From contig QQVD01000037.1 of assembly GCA_003388555.1 (NCBI GenBank), forward strand, positions 1 to 64,000: a DNA stretch of 64,000 nt. Direction: 5' to 3'. How positions within the stretch are numbered: the stretch's first letter is position 1; every line of letters begins with the position of its first letter. Below the pieces are notes generated by a model, which worked only from the letters and a program-made list of their open reading frames with translations, searched no databases and had not been told where the DNA came from. Made by a program: the position numbers and the translations under genes. This DNA is from Acidobacteriota bacterium (GTDB lineage Bacteria > Acidobacteriota > Thermoanaerobaculia > Multivoradales > Multivoraceae). Positions 5,644 to 63,400 of the stretch are shown here, in pieces.

Positions 5644-7194
5644 TCAGCCGGCCGGCCAGTAGCGCGCCCGCAGCTGCTGCTTGTACAGCTTCCCGGTGGG
5701 CAGCCTCGGCAGGCGATCGACGAAGTCGAACGAGCGCGGCACCTTGAACGACGCCAGCCGCTGCCGCGCGAAGTCCTCCAGCTCCTCGGCCAGCCGGTCG
5801 TCTGGCTCGACCCCCGGCGCCGGTTCGACGACCGCCTTGACCTCCTCGCCCATGTCTTCGTGAGGCACTCCGATCACCGCGACGTCGAGCACCTTGGGAT
5901 GCAGCACCAGGACGTTCTCGATCTCCTGCGGATAGATGTTCACGCCACCCGAGATGATCATGAAGGCCTTGCGATCGGTGAGGAAGAGGAAGCCGTCCTC
6001 GTCGAGATAGCCGACGTCTCCGAGCGTCGTCCAGCGCGGTCGGTGTGGATGGCGCGACTCGGAGGTCTTTCCCGGGTCGTTGTGGTACTCGAAGAGCTCG
6101 ACGTCCTCCTCTTGCTCGAAGTAGATCGTGCCCGGGCTCCCCGCGGGCAGCTCGGCGCCTTCTTCGTCGCAGACGTGCACCGTGGCGTTCACCGGCCGGC
6201 CCACGGAGCCCGGCTTGGAGAGCCAGGTGGTGGAGTCGATGAAGCAGGTGCCGTTGCCCTCACTCCCGGCGTAGTACTCGCGCAGGATCGGTCCCCACCA
6301 CTCGATCATCTGGCGCTTCACCTCGACCGGGCAGGGCGCGGCGGCGTGCACCGCGACCTCGAGGCTCGAGACGTCGTAGCGTTCACGGATCTCGCGCGGC
6401 AGCTTGAGCATGCGGCTGAACATCGTCGGCACCCACTGGGAGGTGGTGGCCCGATGCAGCTCGATCGCCGCCAGGGCCGCCTCGGCGTCGAACTTCTCCA
6501 TCACCACCACGGTGCCGCCCTCGGCCTGGGTGCCGGTGGTGAAGGCCAGCGGCGCGGCGTGGTAGAGCGGCGCCGGGGAGAGGTAGACGCAGCACTCACG
6601 GATTGCGAACAGGCCCTGCCGGATGGCGCTCTGTTTGGGATCCGGTGCGTCGACGGTCTCCCCGGTCAACGGCCGTTTGATGCCCTTCGGGCGCCCCGTC
6701 GTACCGGAGCTGTAGAACATCGTGCGCCCGCGTGGCTCCTGGTCCAGCCGCCTGGCCGGCGCCGCCGCGAGAGCGTCGCCGTAGTCGTCGTAGCCCTCGA
6801 TCGCGCCTCCGACGGCCAGGCGCTCAGGGCAGCGCCCCAGGTCGTCCAGTCGCTCACCCAGCTCGGCGGCGACCGGCAGGGCGGCCGATGCGACCAGGGC
6901 CTTGGCGCCACAGTCCTCGACGATGTAGGCGGCTTCGTCGGCTGCCAGATAGCGGTTGACCGGCGTCAGATAGAGACCCGAACGGATCGCCGCCCAGAAG
7001 ACCTCGAAGTACTCGATCCTGTTGTCCAGGTAGGCGGCGACGTGGTCGCCCGGCCTCAGTCCGAGCCCGTGCCAGTGCTGGGCCAGCCGGCACGACGCCG
7101 CCTCGAGCTCGCCGTACGTCGCCCTGGCGCTGCTGCCGGTGAGCACCACCGCAGGTCGATCGGGATGTTTGTCGCTGAAGGCGCCTGGATACAT
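5644..7194 (-). CDS. AMP-dependent acyl-CoA synthetase
   Basis: A 516-residue member of the ANL superfamily, which activates a carboxylic acid as acyl-AMP and transfers it to CoA. The P-loop-like A3 motif YSSGTTGRPKG is at residues 161-171. The adenylate-binding YYAGSEGNGTC region, the hinge motif GYLDEDGFLFLTDRK and the C-terminal catalytic Lys motif PTGKLYKQQL are all intact. The ATG at 7194 gives a normal family length; the much longer open frame upstream runs through G-rich repeats and is not coding. A TACACT -10-like box lies about 40 bases before the start. The acid substrate is unknown; the sequence resembles bile-acid/fatty-acid type FadD-like ligases of actinobacteria and other soil bacteria. 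Confidence 0.88.
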   Translation of the reverse strand: MYPGAFSDKHPDRPAVVLTGSSARATYGELEAASCRLAQHWHGLGLRPGDHVAAYLDNRIEYFEVFWAAIRSGLYLTPVNRYLAADEAAYIVEDCGAKALVASAALPVAAELGERLDDLGRCPERLAVGGAIEGYDDYGDALAAAPARRLDQEPRGRTMFYSSGTTGRPKGIKRPLTGETVDAPDPKQSAIRQGLFAIRECCVYLSPAPLYHAAPLAFTTGTQAEGGTVVVMEKFDAEAALAAIELHRATTSQWVPTMFSRMLKLPREIRERYDVSSLEVAVHAAAPCPVEVKRQMIEWWGPILREYYAGSEGNGTCFIDSTTWLSKPGSVGRPVNATVHVCDEEGAELPAGSPGTIYFEQEEDVELFEYHNDPGKTSESRHPHRPRWTTLGDVGYLDEDGFLFLTDRKAFMIISGGVNIYPQEIENVLVLHPKVLDVAVIGVPHEDMGEEVKAVVEPAPGVEPDDRLAEELEDFARQRLASFKVPRSFDFVDRLPRLPTGKLYKQQLRARYWPAG

Positions 7195-7233
7195 CGGGGC
7201 GGTGGCGTCGGCCGGACGGTGGGGATCGCGGCG

Positions 7234-7239
7234 AGTGTA
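7234..7239 (-). promoter_or_regulatory. Candidate -10 box (TACACT)
   Basis: On the minus strand TACACT lies 39 bases before the acyl-CoA synthetase ATG, giving a leader of about 33 bases. The same hexamer, preceded by GC, sits before two other genes in the window. The adjoining G-rich repeat begins only about 8 bases further upstream. Confidence 0.4.
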
Positions 7240-7245
7240 GTGCAC

Positions 7246-7522
7246 CGGGAGGGGAGGGGAGGGGAGGGGACGGGGGTTAGGGGGCAGGGGTTGGGGGTTG
7301 GGGGGAAGAGGGAAAAGGGAAGAGGGAAAAGGGAAGAGGGAAAAGGGATAAGGGACAAGGGACAAGGGACAAGGGAAAAGGAACAACGGAGAGGGAGAGG
7401 GAGAGGGGTCAGGGGTTGGGGGTTTGGGGGTTGGGGCTGAGGCGGAGAGGCAGGCAGGCAGAGAGGCAGAGGGCGGAGAGGCAGAGCGGCAGAGGGATAA
7501 GAGGCAGAGGGGAGAGGGAGGA
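7246..7522 (+). repeat. Purine-rich G-tract tandem repeat block
   Basis: A nested low-complexity array of almost pure purines on the plus strand. It starts with GGGGA units (7247-7269), then GGGGGTT/GGGGGCA/GGGGTTG heptamer-like units (7271-7305). Next come three copies of a 14-base GAAGAGGGAAAAGG unit, then 7-base GACAAGG units to about 7380. A second GGGGTCA/GGGGTTG stretch follows (7406-7436), then a GGCAGAG array to about 7510. A related array occurs in opposite orientation at 23013-23130. Runs of four or more G at short spacing could form G-quadruplexes. The style recalls the heptanucleotide STRR repeats known from cyanobacteria. Confidence 0.9.
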
Positions 7523-7877
7523 AAGAAACGGCAGGCGGGACCAGAGGATGCGGGAGAGGGCAGTGGACGGAGGTCGAGCCCTTCCCGCCTCTCCGGGATC
7601 GGCGAGCAGAGCGCGGCTCTGGAGTAGCCGGCCTCTTCTCCACCTCGACAGCACTCCCCGAGCCGGGCAGTCATCGAGCGGAGGCAGCGCGCGGCGGCCC
7701 CCGCCTCGGCGAGCTGACGACGATCTCTTCGTGTGCGCTCGTCTTCGTGGAGCCGCGGTCTGCTCTGGCTTCCTGGAGGACGCGGGAGACGAAGGTGGTG
7801 AGCTCCGTGCCGCTCCCACTCCCCTGTCCGCGTGCAGGCGCGCGCCGAAGCGAGCGCCAGATCCAACCGCAGGGGCC

Positions 7878-10274
7878 CTACTCTCGCAAAGCCAGCGTCG
7901 GGGCCAGGCCCGAGGCGCGGCGCGCCGGGATCCAGGTGGCGGCGAGCGCCACCAGCACCAGGGTGGCGACGATCAGGGGCAGCAGCACGACCGGGGTCGA
8001 GGCGAGCTCGCCCAGCGATCCGACGATCAGCCGACGGATGGCGAAGGCCATCGGTGCGCCGATCAGCAGACCGATGACGGTCAGGCGCAGGCCCTGGCGC
8101 ACGATCAGTCGCAGCACGCTGCCGCGTCCGGCGCCCATCGCCATGCGCACGCCGATCTCCTGGCGCCGCTGACTCACCGAGTAGGCGAGCACGCCGTACA
8201 GCCCCATCGCCGCGAGCACCAGCGCGAAGAGCGCGAAGGCGCCGACGATGTAGAGGAAGATGTCGATGCCGGTGAGCGATCTGGCGATCGACTCGTCGAG
8301 CGTCATCAATCCGCCGACCGGCAGCGCCGGATCGGCGCTCCACACGGCGGCGCGCAGCGGATCGGCGATCTGCTCCGGCCGCGCTCCTTCGACCCGGAGC
8401 AGCCAGGCGAAGCGGGCCGTGGGGTGCTGCTGATACGGCAGGTAGACCACCTCCGAGGGGCCGTCGATGACGCCGACCCGACGGTGGCGCACAGCCTGCA
8501 CCACGCCGACGATCTCCACCTCCCGCTCCAGCAGTCGCACCCGCTCTCCGAGCGGTGAGCTGTCGGGGAAGAACCGGGCGGCGAACTGTTCGTCGACCAG
8601 GGCCACCGGCGCGGCGCCGCTGCGGTCGGCCGGCTCGAAGTCGCGTCCCTGCAGCAGCACGAGTCCGAGGGCGTCGAGATAGCCGGGATCGATCGCCAGC
8701 CAGGTCGTGCGCGGAGTGCCGCCGTCGACCGTCTCCTCGCCGACCACCTCGACCGTGGTCATCGGGACGTTGCGCTGGCGCGGCGTGGTGGTGGCGGAGC
8801 TCACCGCGACGACACCGGGCAGCGAGCCGAGCTCGCGCCGCAGCGTCTCCTGCAGGCGGAGTCGCGACTCCTCGTCCGGGTAGTCGTTCGGCGGCAGGGT
8901 GAGCGAGAAGGTCATCACCCCGTCGCTGTCGAAGCCCTGAGCGCCGTACTGCACGTCCCAGAAGGCCCACAGCAGCACGCCGGCGCCGCTGAGCAGGGCC
9001 ACGGCCAGCGCCACCTCGGCGACCACGAAGGCCTGGGACAGGCGGTTGCGCCCCCCGGAGCTGCCGTGACCCGAGCCCTGGCGCAACTCGCCGACGAGGC
9101 GGCCGCGCACCGCCTGGGCGGCCGGGATCATCCCGAAGACGAGCCCTGCGGCTGCCGAGATCCCCAGCGAGAAGGTCAGCACGCCGGCGTCCATCACCGG
9201 CAGGATCGCCTGCGGCAGCCCGGCGGCCAGAGCCGAATGCAGGAAGCGGATGAGCAGGAAGCCGAGGCCGGTGCCGAGCAGGCCGCCGAGCATCGCGAGC
9301 ACGACGCTCTCGGTGAGCAGCTGGCGCAGGATGCGGGTCTTGCCGGCTCCCAGCGCGCTGCGCATGGCGAGCTCGCGTCGGCGCGCCTGGCCGCGTGCGA
9401 GCAGTAGGTTGCCGATGTTGGCGCAGGCGATCAGCAGCACGAAGAGGCCGGCGCCTTGGATCAGGCTGAACAGCATCTCGTCCTCGGGGCCCGGCACCTG
9501 GTCATTGAGCAGGCGCACCACGGCGGTGCGGTCGCGGTTCGGCTCCGGGAACAGTCGCTCGAGCTCGCTGGCGATGCTCGCCAGATCCTCTCCGGCGGTG
9601 ACTTCGTTGTGCCCCGGGGCGAGTCTGCCCAGCAGGTAGTCGAGGCTGCGCTCGGCGCGCTCGGCGCTGGCCGCGTCGAGCTCGAGCGGCAGCCAGATGT
9701 CGGTGGTCCAGCTGAGGAACTCGAACGACTGCGGCAGCACCCCGACCACCTCGGTCGGAGCGCGGTCGATCAGGATCGTGCTGCCGACGATGTCCTCTCG
9801 GCCGCCGAATCGGCTCTGCCAGAGGTCGTGGGTGAGGATCGCCACCGGCGCTGCACCGGGCGTCGAGTCCGCGTCGACGAAGGCGCGACCGCGCTCCACG
9901 GTGCCACCGAGCATCGGCAGCAGCTCGGGGGACACGACGTAGGCCTCGAGCAGCTCCGGTGGCCCGTCTCCGGTCAGGTTGAAGGAGCCACTCGCCACCG
10001 CGGCCAGCGAGCCGAGGCTCGAAGCACGACTGCGGTAGTCGAGGTAGTTGGCCACCGAGACGTTGCCGGCGGCTCCGGTGCGGGTGTCGCGCTCCCAGAT
10101 CATCACCAGCTCGTCCGGATCGGGGAACGGCAGTGGTCTGAGGATGTAGCTCTGCAGGATCGCGAAGACCGCGGTGTTGCCGGCGACGACCAGCGCCAGG
10201 CAGGCGATCACCAGACCGGTGATCCAGCGTTGTTTCAGCAGCGTCCGCAAGGCGAACCGGATGTCCTGAAGCAT
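7878..10274 (-). CDS. ADOP-type ABC transporter permease
   Basis: A 798-residue inner-membrane protein with two MacB/FtsX modules in one chain, the architecture called ADOP (acidobacterial duplicated orphan permease). The start MLQDIRFALRTLLKQRW followed by a long hydrophobic helix is typical. A periplasmic MacB_PCD domain follows, then an FtsX core with the signature ARGQARRRELAMRSALGAG. The second module ends with SVSQRRQEIGVRMAMGAGRG and three more helices. Such proteins act as mechanotransmitting or export permeases; substrates are mostly unknown. GAGGAG lies 6 bases before the ATG at 10274. No ATPase or membrane-fusion partner is adjacent. A metal ATPase gene diverges upstream. Confidence 0.88.
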   Translation of the reverse strand: MLQDIRFALRTLLKQRWITGLVIACLALVVAGNTAVFAILQSYILRPLPFPDPDELVMIWERDTRTGAAGNVSVANYLDYRSRASSLGSLAAVASGSFNLTGDGPPELLEAYVVSPELLPMLGGTVERGRAFVDADSTPGAAPVAILTHDLWQSRFGGREDIVGSTILIDRAPTEVVGVLPQSFEFLSWTTDIWLPLELDAASAERAERSLDYLLGRLAPGHNEVTAGEDLASIASELERLFPEPNRDRTAVVRLLNDQVPGPEDEMLFSLIQGAGLFVLLIACANIGNLLLARGQARRRELAMRSALGAGKTRILRQLLTESVVLAMLGGLLGTGLGFLLIRFLHSALAAGLPQAILPVMDAGVLTFSLGISAAAGLVFGMIPAAQAVRGRLVGELRQGSGHGSSGGRNRLSQAFVVAEVALAVALLSGAGVLLWAFWDVQYGAQGFDSDGVMTFSLTLPPNDYPDEESRLRLQETLRRELGSLPGVVAVSSATTTPRQRNVPMTTVEVVGEETVDGGTPRTTWLAIDPGYLDALGLVLLQGRDFEPADRSGAAPVALVDEQFAARFFPDSSPLGERVRLLEREVEIVGVVQAVRHRRVGVIDGPSEVVYLPYQQHPTARFAWLLRVEGARPEQIADPLRAAVWSADPALPVGGLMTLDESIARSLTGIDIFLYIVGAFALFALVLAAMGLYGVLAYSVSQRRQEIGVRMAMGAGRGSVLRLIVRQGLRLTVIGLLIGAPMAFAIRRLIVGSLGELASTPVVLLPLIVATLVLVALAATWIPARRASGLAPTLALRE

Positions 10275-21699: not shown

Positions 21700-22704
21700 A
21701 TGAAGAACCGGGGGCTGGAGCGGAGTTCACCGAGGGCGACGCGCGACGCCAGGTGCCGTCGTCACGCGGCGGGGTCCCAGCCGCAGCGAGGACGGCGAGG
21801 CGTCGGGCTGCGCGGATGGCTGTCGCTGCTGGCGCTCGCCGCCGCGGCTGGTCCCGCGGCCACCCAGGTCAACACCGAGGCGATGCGACCGGAGTTCGAT
21901 CAACGTGGCTGGCACGGCTCGTTCCAGCTCTCGCTCGGACTGCGCGAGGGCAACAACGAGACGGTGAATCTGGGCGGCGGGTTGCGGCTGCAGCACGCGG
22001 TGCCGTTCGTCGAGCTCCCGGAGGACGACTCCGGCGAACGGTCCGAGGACTCTGGTGCCGGGATCGATGCCGCGGTCGACGCGGGGGGCGACGTGGAGGC
22101 GCCAGGAGACGACGAGACGCTCGGTTTCCGCTCGCCGCGGCGCCTGCTCTTCCTCACCGTGAGCGGAGCGTTCGAGGAGCAGGATGGCGAGGAGGCGGTG
22201 AACGAGGGCTTCACGCACCTGCGCTGGACCCGCATGTGGACGCGTCGCTGGGGAACCGAGTTCTTCGGCCAGGTCGAGTTCGACGAGTTCCGCAGGCTCG
22301 ATCGCCGGGCGCTGCTCGGTGGCGGTGCGCGCTGGCCGCTGATCGAGACGGCCTCGCAGCAGCTCTTTCTCGGCACCGGCCTGATGGCGGAGTTCGAGCG
22401 CCTGGAACCGCTGGCCGGCGGCGAGGAGGCGACCGACGTCGACGCCGTGCGTTCGACCAGCTACGTCGCCTTCCGTCGCGCACCGAGCGACGGGCGGGTC
22501 TCGTATCTGGCGACGCTCTACTTCCAGCCGGTGGTCGACGAGCCGGAGGACTTCCGGCTGCTCGGTGAGTCGGAGATCGCGGTCGCACTGGGCGCGCGGC
22601 TGTCTCTCGGCTTCGTGCTCGTGGTCAAGCACGACAACGATCCGCCGCTCGGCATCGAGGAGCGCGACCTGCAGCTCACCAACCGCCTGCGGGTTCGGTT
22701 CTAG
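21700..22704 (+). CDS. DUF481-family outer-membrane beta-barrel protein
   Basis: A 334-residue exported protein. After a basic N-terminus, a hydrophobic stretch (LSLLALAAAAGPAATQ) forms the signal peptide. Mature sequence starts with strands such as WHGSFQLSLGLREGNNETVNLGGG, whose GLREGN-type pattern is typical of DUF481 salt-stress-induced barrel proteins, and it ends with an aromatic residue (RLRVRF) as outer-membrane proteins do. An acidic, Asp/Glu/Gly-rich insertion at about residues 108-142 probably forms a surface or periplasmic loop. The ATG at 21700 has no Shine-Dalgarno and lies 8 bases after a -10-like box. Function is unknown. Confidence 0.75.
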   Translation: MKNRGLERSSPRATRDARCRRHAAGSQPQRGRRGVGLRGWLSLLALAAAAGPAATQVNTEAMRPEFDQRGWHGSFQLSLGLREGNNETVNLGGGLRLQHAVPFVELPEDDSGERSEDSGAGIDAAVDAGGDVEAPGDDETLGFRSPRRLLFLTVSGAFEEQDGEEAVNEGFTHLRWTRMWTRRWGTEFFGQVEFDEFRRLDRRALLGGGARWPLIETASQQLFLGTGLMAEFERLEPLAGGEEATDVDAVRSTSYVAFRRAPSDGRVSYLATLYFQPVVDEPEDFRLLGESEIAVALGARLSLGFVLVVKHDNDPPLGIEERDLQLTNRLRVRF

Positions 22705-23130
22705 AAGGGTGTTCGCGAGCGGCCCGGCGCTCGCGTCGTCGCACCGGGTTAGGGGACCTGCGGCACGGCGCGGCTCCTTCGCAGTCCGAGGCGTTGCCGC
22801 GCCTCCTTCCGGGCGCTGTGCATGCGGTCGTCGTCCGTTGAGTTGCTGAGCGACGCGCCCTCCAGATGGCCTCCGGTCCCCTCCTCGGAGCGACGACGCT
22901 CGAATGCCTACGCGCTCGGTGAATGGGAGTGGGCCTTGGGCAGAGGATGGGAAGGTGCGCGCGCCTTCTGAGTCGGACTGAGCCGCAGAGTCGTCAGAGG
23001 CACCGGCACCCTTGACCCCTGACCCCTGACCCCTGACCCCCAACCCCCAACCCCTGACCCCCAACCCCCAACCCCTCTCCGCCCCTCTTCCCTCTTCCCT
23101 CTTCCCTTTTCCCTCGTCCCGTCCCTTCCC
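22705..23130. other. 426-base convergent intergenic region
   Basis: No gene is supported between the DUF481 gene and the converging dienelactone hydrolase gene. The first 300 bases are unique GC-rich DNA. The rest is a C-rich repeat block that runs right up to the stop codon of the hydrolase gene. Confidence 0.5.
23013..23130 (-). repeat. G-rich heptamer-like repeat block (second copy)
   Basis: On the minus strand this reads as GAGGGAAAAGGGAAGAGGG units followed by GGGGTTG and GGGGTCA heptamer-like units, the last one repeated four times near 23016-23040. Unit sequences match those at 7246-7522, but the array is shorter and inverted relative to it. It abuts the stop codon of the hydrolase gene at 23131. 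Confidence 0.88.
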
Positions 23131-23856
23131 TCAGCCGACGTTGCGGCGCAGCAGCGAGTGCACCCGTTCCCAGTGCAGCTCGGAGGCCCGCCAGTCGTGG
23201 CGCGGACCACCGGGCGGGGCGTATCCGTGCAGGGCCCAGTCGATCCAGTCGACGGTGTAACGGACCTCGGCGGTGTCGAGGGCGCCGCGCATCACCTGCA
23301 GGTCGCTCTCGGGCGCGGTCGGGTCGTCGGCGCACCATCCGAAGTAGAGCTCGGCCTTCACCGTCTCGAGGTCTCGATGCGGCGAGTCGGCGCCTTCGCG
23401 CACCAGCCAGGCGCCGTGGATCGAAGCCGCCGCGGCGACCCGCTCGGGCATCGCACGGGCGAGCGAGACCACCAGGCCGCCGCTCATGCAGAAGCCGACG
23501 GCGCCGATCGATCCACTGCGCGCGGCCGGATCCTCGTCGGCGATCCGCAGCAGGGCGTGGGCGTCGCCGACGATGTTGGCCGGCGTCACGGTGTCCATCA
23601 ACTCCTTGCGCGCGTGCATGTCCTCGTCGCTCTGTCCGAACTCGCGGAACGGACCGCCGCGGTAGTAGAGGTAGGGCAGCATCACGTAGTAGCCGGCAGT
23701 GGCGAGGCGCGACGCCATCTGGCGCAGCGCCGGCCGGATGCTGGGCGCGTCCATCAGATAGAGGACGACCGGATGTGCCCCGCCGTGCTCGGGGTGGTAG
23801 AGGAAGGTCTTCATCTCGCCTTCCGAGGTGCGGACGTCGAGCTCGCGTTCGATCAT
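23131..23856 (-). CDS. Dienelactone hydrolase family protein
   Basis: A 241-residue alpha/beta hydrolase of the dienelactone hydrolase (DLH) family. The nucleophile elbow is GFCMSGG, with Cys in place of the more common Ser, as in true DLH enzymes. An Asp in YFGWCADDP and a His near the C-terminus (GPRHDW) are candidates for the rest of the triad. N-terminal strands (TSEGEMKTFLYHPE, PVVLYLMDAP) are typical. It lacks a signal peptide. DLH proteins open lactone rings in aromatic degradation, but many homologues have other substrates. No aromatic-degradation genes are adjacent. Confidence 0.85.
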   Translation of the reverse strand: MIERELDVRTSEGEMKTFLYHPEHGGAHPVVLYLMDAPSIRPALRQMASRLATAGYYVMLPYLYYRGGPFREFGQSDEDMHARKELMDTVTPANIVGDAHALLRIADEDPAARSGSIGAVGFCMSGGLVVSLARAMPERVAAAASIHGAWLVREGADSPHRDLETVKAELYFGWCADDPTAPESDLQVMRGALDTAEVRYTVDWIDWALHGYAPPGGPRHDWRASELHWERVHSLLRRNVG

Positions 23857-29940: not shown

Positions 29941-30609
29941 ATGTTCCAGCTGCTCCAGGCCGACTTTAGGCGCCTCGCCGCCCTGCGGGGGCGGGAAGGA
30001 CTCGCCTTCGCGCTGCAGACGGTGCTGTTCGACAACGGCTTCCAGGCGGTCTTCGGCTACCGGGTCGCCAGCGCCCTGAAGCGCCTCGGGCTGCCGCTGC
30101 TGCCGGCGATCGTCTGGCGCTGGACCATCTTCTGCACCGGGGTCGACGTCAACCCCCGGGCGCGCTTCGGCCGCGGCCTGGTGATCAGCCACGGGGTCGG
30201 CCTGGTGGTCGGCGCCGACGTCACGGTGGGCGAGAACTGCCTGCTGCACCACCAGGTGACGCTCGGAGCGCCCACCGTTGGCCGGATCAGCGAGAACCCG
30301 CGCCTCGGCCACGACGTCACCGTCGGCGCCGGAGCCGTCGTGCTCGGCGGCATCGAGGTCGGCGATCGCGCCGTGATCGGTGCCGCGGCGCTGGTGATCG
30401 GCGACGTGCCGGCGGGGGCGCTGGCGCTGGCGCCCGCGGCCCGGCTGCGCGATGCGCCGCCGGAGACCGAGCGTGACCGCGATGTGCGCGACGGTGCTGG
30501 GACGACCGGGAGGGGCAACTCGCCGACACCGCCGACACCGCCGACACCGGCGACACCGGCGACACCGGCGACACCGCCGACGCCGAAGCAGGAAAGAGGA
30601 CCAGGATGA
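29941..30609 (+). CDS. Serine acetyltransferase-like (CysE) LbH protein
   Basis: A 222-residue left-handed beta-helix acyltransferase. Hexapeptide repeats run from GVDVNPRARFGRGLVISHG to VGDRAVIGAAALVIGDVPAGALA, with the catalytic-type His in the HGVGLVVG and LLHHQVTLGA regions. The short N-terminal helical part suggests the compact class of serine acetyltransferases found in many bacteria, which make O-acetylserine for cysteine synthesis. After residue 185 the protein enters a charged stretch and then a Thr-Pro tail made by a 9-bp tandem repeat (30521-30585), which is surely disordered. Its stop overlaps the msrB start (ATGA). The pairing with msrB fits sulfur amino acid metabolism, but other acceptors are possible. 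Confidence 0.75.
   Translation: MFQLLQADFRRLAALRGREGLAFALQTVLFDNGFQAVFGYRVASALKRLGLPLLPAIVWRWTIFCTGVDVNPRARFGRGLVISHGVGLVVGADVTVGENCLLHHQVTLGAPTVGRISENPRLGHDVTVGAGAVVLGGIEVGDRAVIGAAALVIGDVPAGALALAPAARLRDAPPETERDRDVRDGAGTTGRGNSPTPPTPPTPATPATPATPPTPKQERGPG
30521..30585 (+). repeat. 9-bp in-frame tandem repeat (Thr-Pro tail)
   Basis: Seven consecutive copies of a 9-base unit, first CGCCGACAC three times, then CGGCGACAC three times, then CGCCGACGC. They keep the reading frame and encode alternating Thr-Pro-Pro and Thr-Pro-Ala triplets at the end of the CysE-like protein. Copy-number change would lengthen or shorten the tail without a frameshift. Confidence 0.9.
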
Positions 30610-62525: not shown

Positions 62526-63400
62526 AGCGACTCCTCCTGGCGCTGCTCAAAGTACCCGAGCGGCCGAGCCTCCCGCCCGGCCCCGAGGGCTCGGTGGACT
62601 GCTTCCGGGCGTCGCGGAGATTCCTCGCCTACACCGTGCTCAAGTGGGGACTGAAGCAACTCGGCGCGGTGATCTCGCTGGTCGTGTCGCTGGCCTTCCT
62701 CACCGGTTTCCAGTGGGGGCCCTTCGGTGCGATCGAGCCGATGAGAGAGCTCGCCGAAGAGGACATCAGCATCGGTGTGCTCGGCTTCGTCAGCGTCGAC
62801 ACCACGATGGGCGACCTGCTCGGCGTCATCGAGATCTTCGCCATCGGCGCCTTCCTGATCCAGCTGGTGGTCTCGGGCTTCTTCCTCAAGCTGGCGTGGG
62901 AGCTGCGCTGGTACATGGTCAGCGACACCACGATCCGGATCCGAGAGGGGCTGGTGCGGCTCAAGGAGCAGACCATGACGATGGCGAACATCCAGAACAT
63001 GAGCATCCGTCAGGGTCCGCTGCAGCGGCTTTTCGGAATCTACGACCTCGAGGTGCAGACTGCCGGTGGCTCGGGCAGCGGCATGGGCAGCGAGGGCAAC
63101 CCGACGGCCGAGAACCTCCACGTCGGCAAGTTCCGCGGCCTGCGCGACGCCGAGGCGCTGCGGCGCCGCCTGCGGGCTCGTCTCGCCCTGCACTCCGACT
63201 CCGGGCTCGGAGATCCCGACGAGGCGGCTCGCGCCGATGCCCGCCGGCGGGCCGCGGCGGGCAGGGGCGCCGGGGCGGCGGGGCGGCCGGGTGTGGATCT
63301 CGGCGTCGCCACCGCCGCTGCGTCGAGGGTCCTCGAGGAGGCTCGGACGCTGCGCCTTGCGGTGCAGCGTCGGCGTGACGGCGGCATATCGACGGCGTGA
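62522..63400 (+). CDS. Second bacterial PH-domain (bPH2) membrane protein
   Basis: A 292-residue partner of the previous protein, starting at an overlapping ATGA. Two hydrophobic stretches are visible near residues 40-65 (QLGAVISLVVSLAFLTGF) and 100-125 (LGVIEIFAIGAFLIQLVVSGFFL). The PH-like region follows with WYMVSDTTIRIREGLVRLKEQTMTMANIQNMSIRQG, recognised by its IREGLVRLKEQTM and ANIQNM pieces. The C-terminal 70 residues are Arg/Ala-rich and probably cytosolic. The pair likely forms a membrane complex. Confidence 0.78.
   Translation: MKRLLLALLKVPERPSLPPGPEGSVDCFRASRRFLAYTVLKWGLKQLGAVISLVVSLAFLTGFQWGPFGAIEPMRELAEEDISIGVLGFVSVDTTMGDLLGVIEIFAIGAFLIQLVVSGFFLKLAWELRWYMVSDTTIRIREGLVRLKEQTMTMANIQNMSIRQGPLQRLFGIYDLEVQTAGGSGSGMGSEGNPTAENLHVGKFRGLRDAEALRRRLRARLALHSDSGLGDPDEAARADARRRAAAGRGAGAAGRPGVDLGVATAAASRVLEEARTLRLAVQRRRDGGISTA

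Follow-up and report, generated by a model that had tools for sequence, protein, structure and literature searches.

Does the G-rich tandem repeat at positions 7246-7522 of the window (the whole 64,000-nucleotide stretch of acidobacterial DNA analysed) act on the acyl-CoA synthetase gene beside it, or does it belong to something that is not tied to any one gene? A sequence-only reading had described a 277-base array of heptamer units close to a candidate promoter of the synthetase, and had proposed that its G-runs could form quadruplexes or R-loops and alter expression with copy number. The 277 bases consist of 159 G, 81 A, 20 C and 17 T, and composition and Tandem Repeats Finder define them as a purine-rich, G-rich tract with its G strand on the plus strand. 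Its heptamer core at 7266-7436 (plus strand) contains 22 G-runs with a period of 7, as found by the G-run detector. Tandem Repeats Finder reports periods of 7, 14 and 28 inside 7303-7407, and more repeats at 7261-7306 and 7439-7522. The list of units given by the earlier reading had to be revised in part: GGGGTTG/GGGGTCA stands, while GGGGA is only a short lead-in, confined to 7247-7265, and the other units are GGGAAGA/GGGAAAA/GGGACAA. The last ~80 bases, at the interior end of the array (7439-7522, plus strand; Tandem Repeats Finder periods 8, 15 and 23), are filled by a degenerate GAGGCAG-type tract.

Arrays were detected as chained runs of 3-5 G, spaced by 6-8 bases, with at least 5 runs. 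Three are present in the window. Another array of this class (Tandem Repeats Finder and detector), with 16 G-runs, lies at 23009-23120; here the minus strand is the G strand, and the 5' end is 10 bases from the gene at 23131-23856. The third array, at 63259, is within a called gene. When the window was simulated with Markov models of orders 1-3 (60 runs per order), trained on the sequence without the two arrays, 0.02-0.03 arrays per 64 kb were obtained against the three observed. Thus, the 277-base tandem repeat is real, and its like is nearly absent from simulated sequence. Tandem Repeats Finder also reported a 9-base tandem repeat, CGCCGACAC, in ~seven copies with 94% matches at 30521-30585.

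The acyl-CoA synthetase (AMP-binding; Pfam PF00501 and PF13193) occupies 5644-7197 on the minus strand, with its start towards the 5' end of the 7246-7522 array. Our gene caller had put the start further upstream, at 7245; an ATG in the same place as the one at 7197 (MYPG...) is found in three relatives (L210, L211 and L215), and the array is therefore placed ~49 bases upstream of the gene. On its far side is a MacB/FtsX-type permease (7878-10274, minus strand; PF12704 and PF02687), so that the array sits between two minus-strand genes. The second array is faced by the stop of a dienelactone-hydrolase-type gene (23131-23856, minus strand; PF01738) and has a DUF481 gene (21700-22704, plus strand; PF04338) on its far side.

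A quadruplex or R-loop switch that acts in cis on the synthetase and is tuned by the copy number of the units would fit both the short distance of ~49 bases and the high predicted quadruplex potential of the tract. This potential, which had been proposed from the G-runs, was borne out by prediction: the G4Hunter maximum was 3.16, and the fold energy with quadruplexes allowed was −163 kcal/mol, compared with −104 on average (sd 24) over 100 same-letter shuffles, the lowest of which reached −171.5. Since the fold energy falls within the range of the shuffles, it reflects composition as much as order, and RNA folding without quadruplexes gave nothing unusual (z = −1.0). The G-rich strand of the array, however, is the template strand of the synthetase. 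The leader of a synthetase transcript would therefore be C-rich, so that neither a quadruplex nor a G-rich R-loop would be favoured there. The candidate promoter said to lie ~8 bases from the array found no support, as no sigma-70-like site was found in 7100-7950. At all nine synthetase ortholog loci read in relatives the array is absent, and the upstream neighbour is a different and shorter one. Finally, arrays of the same type stand beside many other genes, past stops as well as ahead of starts. A switch for this gene is thus very improbable. Nothing here suggests that the array controls the acyl-CoA synthetase, and the locus cautions against taking a repeat of this kind for a one-gene switch.

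How common such arrays are in the genome was assessed by the whole-genome count that the earlier reading had suggested. The pattern GGGN4, four times, plus GGG, with overlapping matches counted, gave 737 forward and 689 reverse matches in the 6.8 Mb genome, on both strands and on many contigs. The 7246-7522 array is therefore not special to its locus but one among many. The commonest tokens in the arrays of this genome are 7 bases long (686 tokens), the main units being GGGAAAA, GGGGTCA, GGGAAGA, GGGACAA and GGGGTTG, and this one unit set recurs across many loci. Within arrays, blocks of two or three units are locally repeated in tandem. Five pairs of loci share at least 49 bases, compared with at most one in 20 order-7 Markov simulations; long stretches common to loci showed no excess over an order-10 Markov model. 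Some copying between loci is compatible with these results.

The phylum was taken to be Acidobacteriota because a 16S stretch from a family member hit a single named record, a metagenome-assembled genome of Acidobacteriota; the present genome itself gave no 16S match. Across the phylum, the same GGGN4-type pattern gave far lower counts, 0 to 187 matches per genome in 40 relatives; among the matches listed most are poly-G, and a handful are genuine heptamer arrays, for instance (GGGCACA)n in one member of the family. A narrower pattern that excludes poly-G was applied to 297 genomes of the phylum and matched 57 of them, in a patchy distribution and with units that differ between genomes. With this pattern the present genome gave 756 matches and another genome, G103, gave 963. 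The counts depend on the pattern: read backwards, it gave 1515 matches in G090 and 942 in G102, compared with 82 and 24 for the pattern itself, and these two genomes thus favour another unit type. The G103 arrays have GGGACTG/GGGAATA-type units, close to the cyanobacterial type, and the 233 kb of G103 read has 38% GC; thus, a GC-rich genome is not required for arrays.

The position and orientation of arrays relative to genes were examined in 1.26 Mb of tiles from this genome together with 25 stretches picked for holding arrays, a choice that biases the density of arrays and leaves their orientation unbiased. This sample held 69 arrays with at least 5 G-runs, and genes were those of our own codon-usage caller rather than a curated annotation. 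Only one of the 69 lies in a called gene. Leaving out this one and four at contig edges, 64 arrays had genes on both sides; the one at C3:231758 is a GGGGCC repeat rather than a heptamer array, and was kept among the 64 as a failure. The nearer gene is at the 5' end of the array in 58 of 64 cases (P = 9 × 10−12), whichever way that gene points, the median distance to a gene being 22 bases at the 5' end and 248 bases at the 3' end. The layout holds in 23/23 convergent, 10/10 divergent and 25/31 tandem spacers, six arrays breaking it. Where neighbouring arrays on opposite strands are at most 600 bases apart, the order is G-rich then C-rich in 15 of 15 pairs; pair and single-array counts overlap and are not independent. 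Across 462 array-free spacers no switch from purine to pyrimidine was found.

The layout was seen again in other material. In a fresh 400 kb, the 5' gene was nearer for 10 of 11 arrays and the single pair was G-then-C; one of the 12 arrays there lies in a called gene, and three of the 12, retained in the set, are weak GC-rich chains. In 14 other genomes of the phylum the layout holds for 23 of 27 arrays and G-then-C for all five pairs. The 27 arrays leave out 14 that were at edges or in genes, four loci (L110, L113, L119 and L120) were skipped in favour of larger loci from the same genomes, and in stretches of 62% GC or less genes were called by ORF length alone.

An assembly artefact, which the earlier reading had named as the outcome that would overturn it, is hardly credible. 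Four contigs (C1, C24, C31 and C37) do end within 150 bases of an array, as expected if assembly fails at arrays, yet 64 of the 69 arrays are flanked by genes on both sides inside a contig or stretch, and similar arrays are present in other genomes of the phylum. Since the assembly (G000) breaks at arrays, their number is probably underestimated.

Two internal features of the arrays were also explored. In the first 63 arrays, unit classes appeared to follow a cyclic order (GGGGTYR, then GGGRMRA, then GGCAGA/GGCGGAA, then back), with 133 forward changes versus 48 backward and 41 arrays versus 9; these classes were defined post hoc from the same 63 arrays, and the order was not repeated in the fresh 400 kb (8 versus 6 changes and 3 versus 2 arrays, with low power), so that the cyclic order was set aside. 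As a possible sign of growth direction, GGGG runs were more frequent in the gene-proximal third than in the interior third (3.16 versus 1.95, P = 0.003, 38 arrays), and lag-7 identity in the same 38 arrays did not differ between these thirds (P = 0.24). Separately, a dispersed REP-like palindrome, CCTCCCCCT-loop-AGGGGGAGG, gave 43 matches in 1.66 Mb, on C1, C2, C5, C6, C7 and C13 (e.g. G000:C13:37107 and C5:167032). A tie between this palindrome and the array arms was considered and rejected, as it occurs in 4/37 array spacers and 24/603 others (P = 0.07), array spacers being longer on average.

The distribution over spacer types bears on a possible role in ending or insulating transcripts, above all between convergent genes. 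In the tiles, arrays were found in 9 of the 51 spacers between convergent genes, compared with 13 of 292 tandem and 3 of 144 divergent ones, a distribution that speaks for a transcript-end element. The accessible text of Rehm et al. (2015; PMC4692102) reports in addition that Xanthomonas transcripts start or stop at quadruplex-forming heptamer repeats more often than at control repeats. Against such a role, 42 of the 51 convergent spacers are free of arrays, arrays flank many genes upstream of start codons as well as downstream of stop codons, and Rehm et al., in the same accessible text, found no role for their repeats in gene regulation (PMC4692102). We therefore consider it unlikely that ending or insulating transcripts is what the arrays are for; they may have some weak, general influence on where transcripts end.

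The orientation rule, rather than the locus at 7246-7522, is the interesting part, and it raises the question of what makes the arrays. Pfam models of candidate makers were searched in 60 genomes of the phylum, selected to include both array-bearing and array-free ones; the search covers known families. No candidate reverse transcriptase (RVT_1, PF00078) was found in the present genome, rated 98.8% complete, nor any match in the array-bearing G103, G199, G221, G318 and G069. Ku (PF02735) is present in the genome under study and absent from the array-bearing G103, G090, G102, G069, G045 and G202. Y1 transposase genes (PF01797) are found in 52 of the 60 genomes, this one included, and no match was found in the array-bearing G318 and G153. 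As judged by these family models, each of the three is lacking in some of the genomes that bear arrays, so that none looks like a maker of arrays in general. Such a maker must occur in every genome that bears arrays, which makes the cause of the orientation testable.

These searches weigh on two specific origins. In the first, broken intergenic ends would be healed in a telomere-like manner, by templated G-rich 3' extension followed by joining, leaving the order gene-GGGNNNN...NNNNCCC-gene. The topology is exact in all 15 pairs, in the five of other genomes and in the one from fresh sequence; one unit set is found at many loci, and Ku is encoded. The lack of an RVT_1 candidate in this genome and in the five array-bearing genomes named, the lack of Ku in six, and the spacing of the pair arms, which are 82 to ~300 bases apart and in several cases have ordinary-looking sequence between them, nevertheless make this origin most unlikely. 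In the second, the arrays would be the inverted ends of a REPIN-like element moved by a Y1 (RAYT-type) transposase, for which the dispersal of inverted pairs over the genome and the wide occurrence of Y1 genes would speak. However, the three Y1 genes of this genome form a single 10 kb cluster and the 20 kb holding them has no array of at least 4 G-runs, two array-bearing genomes have no Y1 match, and close pairs include only ~30 of the 64 usable arrays. We regard such an element as improbable. The Y1 cluster itself (L205, G000:C21:99934-109711) holds three paralogous RAYT-like genes of 386-407 codons, and downstream of these genes there are several occurrences of a palindrome-like repeat around GATCGGGCGCCTCC and GGTTGGGTCCTTCTCAG.

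A broader possibility is a host enzyme system, as yet unrecognised and at work in at least three phyla, that would write a lineage-specific set of G-rich heptamers outward from gene ends into spacers; reverse transcriptase, Ku and Y1 transposase do not look like such a system. To this we give an outside chance; if it were true, an unrecognised writing system would give spacers the polarity of a head-to-head telomere fusion.

The explanation that we favour, and consider probable, is a dispersed intergenic family of G-rich heptamers of the class described by Rehm et al., expanded in an acidobacterial lineage, which grows by slippage and exchange plus a directional step and needs no gene-specific role. 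Arrays would be seeded rarely, and would then grow and shrink in heptamer steps through replication slippage and unequal exchange, for which the ordinary enzymes of replication and repair are the likeliest agents. Quadruplex folding of the displaced G strand may help slippage, and selection would remove growth into genes. The layout would come from a step that is sensitive to direction: arrays might grow at one end, or the opposite orientation might be selected against. The tandem blocks of units inside arrays are as slippage gives, and the accessible text of Rehm et al. notes that polymerase slippage has been proposed to account for the abundance of heptamers (PMC4692102). Against this explanation, slippage alone accounts neither for the orientation nor for the recurrence of one unit set at many loci, and an age gradient along arrays is not clear.

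The arrays can be compared with several known systems. In eukaryotic telomeres short G-rich units are added, and interstitial head-to-head fusions are inverted pairs whose G strand points away from the genes in the 5'-to-3' direction. The arrays share the G-rich units, the outward G strand and the inverted pairs, but are internal to a bacterial chromosome, and no reverse transcriptase was found. REPINs, which are associated with RAYT transposases, are dispersed intergenic repeats that form inverted pairs. The arrays resemble them in dispersal, intergenic site and inverted pairs, but their units are not palindromic, and in this genome they lie away from the Y1 genes. The short tandemly repeated repetitive (STRR) sequences of cyanobacteria are tandem heptanucleotides dispersed over the genome, as the arrays are, a likeness at the level of general description. 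Heptamers that are intergenic and oriented relative to genes are also known in the TAACTGA direct repeats of Beggiatoaceae and Cyanobacteria which, according to the available part of the source, show an orientation bias (PMC4679880); those repeats differ from the arrays in not being G-rich and in lying mostly forward upstream of the start codon. GATAGRA heptamer repeats in Chloroflexus are mentioned in a further source, likewise available in part (PMC6749651).

The closest class is that of Rehm et al. (PMC4692102), whose accessible text describes GGGAATC repeats in two Xanthomonas genomes and GGGGA(T/C)T repeats in Nostoc PCC 7120, and mentions a report of heptanucleotides in Calothrix. These repeats are dispersed heptamers, mostly intergenic and closer to the gene at their 5' side irrespective of its direction; convergent pairs are common in Xanthomonas and few in Nostoc, repeats between divergent genes are rare, and quadruplexes form in vitro (PMC4692102). 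The 60 commonest tokens of the present genome include neither of the published units, so that the arrays fall outside a strict GGGNATC / GGGGA(T/C)T definition. In the broad sense they belong to the class, as heptamers with runs of at least 3 G, period 7, on both strands, mostly intergenic, with the 5' gene nearer, convergent pairs as in Xanthomonas and under-representation between divergent genes; they differ from the repeats described in the accessible text in having other units, several types of which are mixed in one array, and in being found in another phylum, here at 68-71% GC (PMC4692102). The likeness to cyanobacterial heptanucleotide repeats noted in the earlier reading is thus fair, period, G-runs, intergenic site and orientation matching those described for Nostoc and Xanthomonas in that text (PMC4692102). 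A literature search, part of which named the phylum, found no earlier report of G-rich heptamer repeats in Acidobacteriota, and the array at 7246-7522 is a new occurrence in this phylum of a known repeat class. As far as the accessible account of the other two phyla goes, the same layout is seen in Gammaproteobacteria, Cyanobacteria and Acidobacteriota with units that differ, which suggests that what matters for the rule is the G-run heptamer, as opposed to a single inherited element (PMC4692102).
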